Origin: Rhizobium sp. ACO-34A
GTDB taxonomy: Bacteria > Pseudomonadota > Alphaproteobacteria > Rhizobiales > Rhizobiaceae
Reading direction: 5' to 3'
Length of the DNA stretch: 64,000 nucleotides
NCBI GenBank assembly: GCA_002600635.1
Contig: CP021372.1
Coordinates: forward strand, 451,001 to 515,000
Below, in pieces: positions 21,698 through 23,541 of this stretch (position 1 is its first letter; each line of letters opens with the position of its first letter). The notes beneath the pieces are model-generated. The model was not told where the DNA came from. It saw only the letters and a program-made list of their open reading frames with translations, and ran no database searches. The translations under genes and the position numbers were made by a program.

Positions 21698-23260
21698 TCA
21701 TGACCTCGTGCGCACCACTCGCCGCGGAAAGAGAACCTCTCCGGAAGATGTCTTCATTCCACTGACGGCGAGTGGAACATCATACCGCGCCGGGCACGAT
21801 ATTCCGAGTTTCGTATGCAGCCTGGAAGCTGTCTCAGGTAGGAACGGGAGCAAACAGCGAGCGACGATGGCGAGGCCGTAGACCTGTTCTGCCAGAGTAG
21901 CCCCAAGGCGGTCGGAAATTACTGATCGTTCCGCTCTGCCGAGTTCACCGGTCAAGACCTTGGCATCTGACCACGGTGCTTTGCGGGTAAACTCCCTGTT
22001 CGCGGACCCTAGATAGGAGAAAATCTCATTCAGGCCGAGATGAAGTTCGTAGTTGTCAAAGGAGTTCAGGACTTTTTCGGGAAGGCTGGCTGCTTCGCGA
22101 ACAAGAGCGCTGTCAGGAACCGCTGGCGTCATGCCGGAAAAGGATGATGCCAGCAACGTGAGAACCCGATTGAGAAGATTTCCAAGCTGTCCGCCAAGCT
22201 CTCCCGACCATGCGGCCTCGAGCCGTTCTTCGGAGAAATCTCCATCATCGGCGGAACGGATGTGGCGTAACAGGTAATAGCGCAATGCGTCCGGGGTCTT
22301 ATAGCCGTGCACAAGGCCATCGGCGTCGACGCCGTTGCCTGCAGATTTTCCGATTTTTCGCCCGTCTACAGTCAGGTAGCCGTGAACGAAGATCGATGAC
22401 GGGAGCGGCACTCCGGCAGACAGGAGTATCGCGGGCCAGTAAATCGCATGAAACTTTGAAATTCCCTTGCCGACAAAGTGGGTGCGCTCGCCTTGCCGTG
22501 CCCAGTATCGCCGGAACATGGTTTCGTCGGAGCCGTAACCAAGCCCTGTGATATAGTTCGCCAGAGCATCGAACCACACATAAATAACTTCGTCGCTGCC
22601 GGGCACCGGCACGCCCCAGCCGCGTGCCCTTTCAGCACTACGCGACACACTGATGTCCTGAAGTCCGTGCCGGAGCAGGGCAAGTATCTCATTTCGCCGG
22701 TGAACCGGAACGACCTTAAGTTCTTCTGTCTCGATCAGACGTCGAATGCGTTCACCATATCGGGATAGGCGGAAGAACCAGTTTTCCTCCTTCACGATCT
22801 CGAGCGGGACACCGTGCTCCGGGCATCTTCCGTCGTCCAGATCCGTAAGCTCGTAGAACTGCTCGCAGCCGACGCAATAGAAGCCTTCATAGCTCTTTCG
22901 ATAGAGGTCATCATTTTCGGCGCACGCTTTCCACAGCGAATGCACGCAGGCTATGTGCCTTGGATCTGAGGATGTGCGAACGAATGCATCGTTTGAAATG
23001 TGGAGGTTCCTGCCGAGCTGTTCGAAGCGGTCGGCATTCTCTCCCACGAAGTCGGCCACCGGACGTCCAGCTGTTTCCGCGGCGCGAACGTTTTTCAGAC
23101 TGTTGTCATCCGTACCGCACTGAAATCTGACGTCTTTGCCGAGAAGTCGGGCATGGCGGGCATAAGCATCGGCCTGCACGAGTTCGAGCGCAAAACCAAC
23201 ATGCGGCGCGGCATTAACATATGGAATCGAGGTGGTGATGTAAGTCGTCGTGCTGTCCAT
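21698..23260 (-). CDS. metG: Methionyl-tRNA synthetase (accessory type)
   Basis: The ATG at 23260 with AAGGATATCCCG upstream gives 520 residues. Class I features: the HIGH-type site is APHVGF, GTDDNS stands for GTDEHG, a zinc knuckle is seen in CVGCEQF...RCPEHG, the WFDALANYITGLGY segment is typical of MetRS, and the KMSKS loop is KIGKS in GRKIGKSAGN. No C-terminal tRNA-binding domain is present. A chromosomal copy is expected elsewhere, so this may be an extra enzyme with different inhibitor or substrate tolerance. A Met-rich leader and terminator lie immediately upstream. Confidence 0.92.
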   Translation of the reverse strand: MDSTTTYITTSIPYVNAAPHVGFALELVQADAYARHARLLGKDVRFQCGTDDNSLKNVRAAETAGRPVADFVGENADRFEQLGRNLHISNDAFVRTSSDPRHIACVHSLWKACAENDDLYRKSYEGFYCVGCEQFYELTDLDDGRCPEHGVPLEIVKEENWFFRLSRYGERIRRLIETEELKVVPVHRRNEILALLRHGLQDISVSRSAERARGWGVPVPGSDEVIYVWFDALANYITGLGYGSDETMFRRYWARQGERTHFVGKGISKFHAIYWPAILLSAGVPLPSSIFVHGYLTVDGRKIGKSAGNGVDADGLVHGYKTPDALRYYLLRHIRSADDGDFSEERLEAAWSGELGGQLGNLLNRVLTLLASSFSGMTPAVPDSALVREAASLPEKVLNSFDNYELHLGLNEIFSYLGSANREFTRKAPWSDAKVLTGELGRAERSVISDRLGATLAEQVYGLAIVARCLLPFLPETASRLHTKLGISCPARYDVPLAVSGMKTSSGEVLFPRRVVRTRS

Positions 23261-23310
23261 CGGGATATCCTTGGGAAGGTTCAATGTCCCTCAAGGCGGA
23301 TCGACCAATG

Positions 23311-23333
23311 AAAAAACCGCCTCAAGGGCGGTC
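23311..23333 (-). terminator. Leader terminator before metG
   Basis: In the minus direction the RNA reads GACCGCC, loop CUUGA, GGCGG then UUUUUU. The stem is 6 bp and the U-run has six residues, so it is a standard intrinsic terminator. It lies 50 nt upstream of the metG start and after a tiny ORF, which is the place of an attenuator rather than of a gene-end terminator. Confidence 0.75.
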
Positions 23334-23366
23334 TAAAGTGCATTACAAGCGCACAAATCCGCCACG

Positions 23367-23414
23367 CTAGGAGCGCGGCATCATCATCGTGGCGTTGGCG
23401 AGGCTTCTGTTCAT
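23367..23414 (-). CDS. metG leader peptide MNRSLANATMMMPRS
   Basis: A 15-residue ORF read leftward with three adjacent Met codons near its end, then PRS and TAG. Region 2 of the attenuator begins directly at the stop codon. The ribosome site is weak (GATGATAGCACTGACAAC before the ATG), which lowers confidence that this exact start is used. A longer in-frame reading exists, but the compact form matches known leader peptides. Its likely function is to sense Met-tRNA supply through ribosome position. Confidence 0.6.
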   Translation of the reverse strand: MNRSLANATMMMPRS

Positions 23415-23541
23415 GTTGTCAGTGCTATCATCCGGTCGCGCGTGAAACAAGCCCGCATTGAGGGGCGCCTCCAAATCATGTCGCTGTTGGTTCGTACGCA
23501 ACAGATCGCCGTTTCGATCCATCGAAGTAAGCTTTGGATCG

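Follow-up and report, generated by a model that had tools for sequence, protein, structure and literature searches.

On the minus strand of the window, the 64-kb stretch of DNA from Rhizobium sp. ACO-34A analyzed in this study, we found a gene (21698..23260) encoding an accessory methionyl-tRNA synthetase (MetRS) of 520 amino acids. The protein matched PF09334 and TIGR00398 (361 bits vs. a cut-off of 336), and its closest solved structure is 4dlp. It exhibits a class I core, with HVGF in place of the HIGH motif of the housekeeping enzyme and KIGKS in place of the KMSKS motif of the closest solved relative; some other MetRS share HxGF or KIGKS. The genome also carries a second, housekeeping metG, the product of which is 39% identical to the accessory enzyme and gives a stronger TIGR00398 match. 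When we looked for a Met-run leader upstream of the housekeeping gene, it was absent, and these data agree with the sequence-only reading of this DNA made earlier, in which the gene of the window had been called accessory. No tRNA genes were found within the window and the tRNA genes at 28 loci amounted to one tRNA-Ala.

The ATG of the accessory metG (23260, minus strand) lies downstream of a leader ORF and a terminator, and direct reading indicated a Shine-Dalgarno motif (AAGGA, 23268..23272) in front of it. The leader ORF (MNRSLANATMMMPRS*, 23367..23414, minus strand) comprises 15 codons, from the ATG at 23414 to a TAG at 23369-23367. Three Met codons in a row (23379..23387) occupy codons -6 to -4, counted from the stop. 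Stem 1:2 (GCCGCGCU/AGCGUGGC, 23361..23379) overlaps the Pro-Arg-Ser-stop codons, and the core of region 2 (GGCGG, 23359..23363) pairs with region 3 as antiterminator. According to alignment and folding, region 3 (GACCGCC, 23327..23333) constitutes the 5' arm of the terminator and its CCGCC the 3' arm of the antiterminator. The intrinsic terminator 3:4 (23311..23334) involves a stem (23334-23314) and a T6 tract (23316-23311). It is followed by region 5 (CCGCCTTGAGGG, 23288..23299), which is complementary to the terminator loop and the 3' arm (4:5 helix). All these elements are located on the minus strand.

For comparison with relatives, we used the best 80 of 228 matches, of which 79 loci were kept; 32 of them (L003-L034) belong to rhizobia and related genera. 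Their MetRS are 67-89% identical to that of the window and the leader was present upstream in 32/32. Together with the window they form a close set of 33 leaders, and pairing percentages were calculated from its 32 distinct rows. None of the 33 leaders lacks the ORF, the terminator or either of the alternative pairings. ORF length was 15-17 codons throughout, and each of the three run positions is Met in 32 of the 33 leaders. One codon interrupts the run in L018 (Val), L023 (Val) and L030 (Thr), and in L010 the run consists of four Met. Peptide residues apart from MMM(P/L)RS are poorly kept, and codons -7 to -12 vary. The three adjacent AUG of a 15-codon minus-strand leader, as described before, are present in the sequence and the run is retained among its relatives.

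The stems were similarly well conserved. Paired cells amounted to 99.6% for 1:2, 99.4% for 2:3 and 100% for 3:4, the latter among cells with letters on both sides. The predicted terminator with U6 ahead of metG and the alternative pairing of region 2 with the terminator stem were both confirmed by these values. In contrast, the pause hairpin that had been drawn around the AUG codons (GCCACG..CGTGGC) is not conserved; by eye, it was recognized only in the leaders of the window and its closest relatives, and we dropped it as the 1:2 stem. The stem conserved among the 33 leaders (CCGCGCU/AGCGUGG) lies directly 3' of the Met codons. In the true register 99.5% of the pairs were formed vs. at most 58.5% in slid versions, a comparison that excludes a register error only. 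Since the stem arms hardly vary, covariation in the close set did not rise above that of shuffles (one pair changed on both sides; 188/500 shuffles were as high), and coordinated stem changes were seen, by eye and folding, only between diverged groups. The alignment of homologous upstream regions suggested in the sequence-only reading had thus one positive outcome, conserved Met codons, and one negative, no covariation above shuffles in the close set. As both the Met codons and the stems are conserved among homologues, the attenuator reading survived this comparison.

Short ORFs are common, and the terminator-like sites of the window are not enriched (4 found vs. 4.2 expected), as one might expect if a chance ORF preceded an ordinary terminator belonging to the upstream gene. 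However, a short ORF that has three Met codons side by side in frame and a terminator behind it occurs exactly once in the 64-kb window, and a first-order Markov simulation of 200 sequences of 64 kb, scanned on both strands, did not produce this arrangement at all. As stronger proof that the leader is real than this simulation, we consider its conservation. Mean pairwise column identity per 25-nt bin was 0.60-0.93 between the leader ATG and the metG start, 0.48 in the promoter stretch and 0.02-0.33 upstream of -50, so that a conserved block stands amid diverged flanks. Moreover, the layout recurs ahead of diverged MetRS genes (see below). Because of this conservation the chance explanation is already refuted, and we regard its remaining probability as practically negligible.

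To model the switch, transcripts were cut before region 4 and folded with the ribosome-covered bases blocked; the footprint was assumed to end 12 nt beyond the first nucleotide of the codon in the A site. Here, we found that the mean probability of the antiterminator 2:3 was 0.86-0.92 with the A-site at codons -7 to -3 and 0.69 at -2. It dropped to 0.00 with the ribosome at -1 or at the stop and was 0.13-0.15 at -12 to -8. The Met run (-6 to -4) falls inside this permissive stall window (-7 to -2). With the ribosome on the first Met position, 2:3 reached at least 0.72 in 32/33 leaders (0.32 in L018), and with the ribosome at the stop it was 0.00 in 33/33. Without a ribosome 2:3 did not exceed 0.14 in 27/33 leaders; the exceptions were L023 (0.25), L004, L005, L011 and L029 (0.39-0.46) and L015 (0.85). 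In the untranslated state region 3 stays paired upstream in L022 (0.66), L029 (0.52) and L015 (0.81).

We then shuffled the stretch between the Met run and region 3 in nine leaders (150 shuffles each). The switch amplitude was matched by 0/150 shuffles in the window, L087, L121, L122 and L123 and by 1/150 in L124. It was not special compared with shuffles in L022 (14/150), L015 (19/150) and L029 (4/150). In the folding model, the diverged leaders L085, L087, L121, L122, L123 and L124 behaved like the close set. Residual pairing with the ribosome at the stop was 0.41 in L125 and 0.34 in L087 and L085, and L122, L124 and L125 have weak U tracts behind the terminator. When the full leader was folded at equilibrium (window, L087), the terminator won even with the ribosome on the Met codons, and therefore the model needs co-transcriptional kinetics. 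The order of transcription also matters in known attenuators.

The RNAalifold consensus favors a helix of the terminator loop and the 3' arm with region 5 (CCGCCUUGAGGG at 23299-23288). This 4:5 pairing reached 91.8% of cells, but a single pair fails to form in 22/32 rows. In four sequences both partners of one pair are changed; however, slid versions of the helix score covariation as high. We tested 14 alphaproteobacterial leaders, eight of the 33 close ones and six others, and in 13 of them the 4:5 duplex was stronger than that of shuffles (p-values of 0.000-0.023; exception L026 with 0.057). In both actinobacterial leaders (L122, L123) it was not stronger than shuffles. Region 5 is able to stack on the 2:3 helix, and our guess is that it might hold the RNA in its readthrough form or leave the start site of metG accessible.

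A promoter scan for the best pair of TTG and a second hexamer at a distance of 16-18 nt (5-8 of 12 matches, no shuffled control) returned for the window TTGTTT (23450-23445), a 17-nt spacer and TAGCAC (23427-23422) on the minus strand (23422..23450), 7 nt upstream of the leader ATG. The best promoter-like pair ends 5-7 nt ahead of the leader ATG with a spacer of 17 in 31/33 close leaders, the exceptions being L016 (3 nt) and L029 (11 nt). Similar spacing was seen by eye in L087, L122 and L123. Since such a gap has no room for a Shine-Dalgarno ribosome-binding site, the leader ORF is probably leaderless. For comparison, the 5' end of the rnTrpL RNA of S. meliloti is described as the trpL ATG in the accessible text of PMC7298713.

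Among 394 genomes of the window's family, which its relatives indicate to be Rhizobiaceae, the accessory MetRS was detected (E ≤ 1e-150) in seven, and a Met-run leader was present in 7/7. Four of the 394 genomes (G000, G297, G229, G354) were leader-positive by model R1 with 89-98 bits, whereas the next match had 32 bits; three of these four are most likely the genomes of L003, L015 and L029. The other three of the seven family genomes are represented by L085-L087, whose MetRS are 52-53% identical to that of the window. Their leader peptides are MTSLPINALSCMMMPLSIREADPFA (L085, L086) and MTCLPLNTLSRMMMPLSIREADPFA (L087), and their stems are CCGCUCUC/GAGAAGCGG, GAAGCGG/CCGCUUC and GCCGCUUC/GAGGCGGC. 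In another family of the order, L121 (51% identity) has the leader MPTHPASSSRFTMMPLSQIEVARVVV and the stem GAGGUGG/CCGCCUC. In the order search, 3/397 genomes were found (the window's genome, G297 and G430), and the class search (1/385) and the phylum search (1/398) each returned the window's own genome. In these searches with the window's MetRS, scoring was limited as a rule to the top three candidates of each genome.

On plasmids, 45 records contained a MetRS match, and the six full-length loci read (L089, L122-L125, L127) all carry a Met-run leader. A plasmid copy of Streptomyces sp. NBC_01558 (leader MITPSRQHRMMPRTRGC, MetRS 48% identical) and one of Embleya sp. NBC_00896 (leader MITRSFQMMPRRRGC, 46%) switch in the folding model. 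The stop codon of the L124 leader is shifted, L126 and L090 are MetRS fragments without gene start, and the plasmid records H3, H7 and H8 contain a DNA match to the leader. Overall, identity of the accessory MetRS is 51-53% in diverged alphaproteobacteria and 46-48% in Streptomyces and Embleya, and in every full-length case read MetRS is the downstream gene. In the diverged leaders L085, L086, L087, L121, L122 and L123 the layout is kept with different stem sequences; all of them except L086 were folded, and each of these five switches. The likeness between diverged groups is one of layout, as the stems differ strongly in sequence. Searches of viral contigs for the accessory MetRS were negative, and 15 phage records matched, all with less than 60% identity.

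Kin of the Streptomyces type are common, since the best 120 clusters of a protein search were 70-99% identical and, where named, mostly from Streptomyces. In a quick tree of 59 rows, the alphaproteobacterial leader-bearing proteins form a group of 25 rows (support 90) and the actinobacterial MetRS one of 10 rows (support 100), for two of which upstream DNA was at hand. Both groups join at an SH-aLRT of 96 with L036 (Gemmatimonadota) and L045 (Armatimonadota) as sister, but several long branches render the deeper nodes uncertain. The leader either spread along with its gene or had more than one origin. Among the 47 distant loci (L035-L081), a Met-run ORF was found at L036 and L045 only. These ORFs (MCMM.., ..GMMMSR..) precede strong terminators, and L045 contains an inverted pair of 10 nt without mismatch (GTCTGGTCTG/CAGACCAGAC). 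Since no clear switch emerged when they were folded, we do not count the two loci as attenuators.

Several copies appear damaged. In L006 (Pararhizobium polonicum), metG has an in-frame stop at codon 161 behind an intact leader. The R. johnstonii TP60 plasmid pRlX3 carries an orphan, partly decayed leader (..TIMMPRT*, L088:3983-4086) with no MetRS annotated behind it. The R. leguminosarum and R. indigoferae hits H33-H45 on 13 plasmids are accessory MetRS fragments (25-27% of the length, 71% identity) and probably remnants of gene loss. On plasmids of Rhizobium sp. T1473 and T1470 (H7, H8, H49, H50), the leader lies about 3 kb from a MetRS part starting at residue 88, as if something had been inserted between them. 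The patchy presence (7/394), the plasmid copies, the decayed copies (L006, L090) and the orphan leader (L088) look like gain and loss under changing selection.

Taken together, the locus combines a leader ORF with a cognate codon run, mutually exclusive 1:2, 2:3 and 3:4 stems and a terminator before the gene, and we are confident that the accessory MetRS is controlled by a methionine-specific transcription attenuator of the ribosome-mediated type. From these elements we infer leaderless translation, ribosome stalling and induction. RNA polymerase would start at the leader AUG or within a few bases, and a ribosome would load onto the leaderless 5' end. As long as Met-tRNA suffices, this ribosome should reach the stop and cover region 2, so that the 3:4 terminator forms. 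When elongator Met-tRNA is short, the ribosome would stall on the AUG run and mask region 1, region 2 would pair with region 3, the terminator would fail and metG would be read. In the folding model a stall at the run does free region 2 and a ribosome at the stop hides it (weakly in L018). A shortage of charged methionine tRNA probably induces the accessory metG. In untranslated RNA, most sequences are unlikely to adopt 2:3, and termination would be expected; therefore, very severe starvation, when initiator fMet-tRNA is also gone, should shut metG again. That methionine starvation also limits initiation is awkward for any Met sensor.

Initiator and elongator Met-tRNA are charged by the same enzyme, and any stall within the permissive window (-7 to -2) would do. 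The switch might consequently sense initiation or a general slowing of ribosomes (antibiotic, stress) as a translation-coupled attenuator in which the AUG codons are incidental. The sequence comparison argues against this: positions -6 to -4 are each Met in 32/33 leaders while -7 to -12 vary, Met runs recur in diverged leaders in which the other residues are different, and a MetRS lies downstream in each full-length case read. We consider this explanation improbable. Very improbable is, in our view, that the main product is a short terminated RNA or peptide acting in trans, like rnTrpL/peTrpL of Sinorhizobium, with a secondary cis switch. The leaderless layout and the terminated RNA of about 100 nt do resemble trpL as described in the accessible text of PMC7298713, and the decayed leader on the R. 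johnstonii plasmid stands without MetRS. However, high R1 scores were confined to four genomes of 394, all with accessory metG, and the peptide is poorly kept outside MMM(P/L)RS.

An attenuator controlling the synthetase of its own amino acid has precedents. Vecchione and Sello reportedly described for Streptomyces trpRS1/trpS2 an indolmycin-resistant auxiliary TrpRS with an attenuator. As there, the gene of an accessory synthetase follows a terminator switch and a leader peptide in which codons for the cognate amino acid form a run; the locus described here differs in that it involves Met instead of Trp, that sensing is entangled with initiation and that region 5 is added. E. coli pheST is likewise a synthetase gene under a cognate attenuator, but it encodes the housekeeping enzyme and uses Phe codons. 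Met T boxes and SAM riboswitches also exert methionine-related control by termination, but they sense tRNA or SAM directly and lack the leader peptide found here. No Rfam family reached threshold in the window, with no match to a T box or SAM aptamer. RF00624 (P9) scored 26.4 bits (threshold 43) and is similar in layout only, having codon run, stem and terminator in the same order but AUU (Ile) codons. The consensus of this family, "Pseudomonas sRNA P9," begins with AUUAUUAUU, followed by stem and terminator, and itself resembles an attenuator with Ile codons more than a free sRNA.

To our knowledge, methionine has so far been missing among codon-run attenuators. Our literature search, with subscription papers mostly outside its coverage, found no methionine-run attenuator either. 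In its accessible text, a 2005 survey of Actinobacteria reports no conserved RNA structures before methionine operons and lists a candidate attenuator upstream of S. avermitilis trpS2 (PMC1262725), and metG is unmentioned in the accessible main text of two other surveys (PMC1273637, PMC2965389). A close rhizobial case is S. meliloti trpLE(G), the leader RNA of which starts at the AUG, encodes a 14-aa leader peptide and chooses between terminator and antiterminator (PMC7298713). The present leader resembles it in this choice and in its putative AUG start, but trpLE(G) has Trp codons and a biosynthetic operon. We rate methionine as a new amino-acid specificity of a known attenuation mechanism.

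As to the role of the spare enzyme, the genome of the window holds this second MetRS beside the housekeeping one, and it is most likely an insurance copy for an inhibited main MetRS or for scarce methionine. By analogy with the Streptomyces accessory TrpRS, an inhibitor-proof spare would be the most attractive reading, but relief of methionine shortage is equally consistent with the data. Literature searches for a link of the accessory MetRS to self-resistance or MetRS2 found none, and the accessible text of PMC7916415 names no natural MetRS inhibitor. As a tentative and rather doubtful extension, the HxGF-type accessory MetRS of Alphaproteobacteria and Actinomycetota might be a family of inducible insurance against a natural inhibitor of the housekeeping MetRS. 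A separate Met-codon attenuator would control each copy and, since its tRNA family also serves start codons, would respond in two directions, switching the gene on when Met-tRNA is partly lost and off when the loss is severe; region 5 would lock the readthrough form.

Methionine is perhaps absent among codon-run attenuators because its tRNA family also starts translation. A repeatedly kept Met attenuator would show that methionine sensing can work and would provide a natural reporter of Met-tRNA charging. The patchy, often plasmid-borne occurrence of the spare enzyme is a hint that MetRS, a current drug target, is repeatedly attacked in soil, and hence a hint at natural inhibitors of it.
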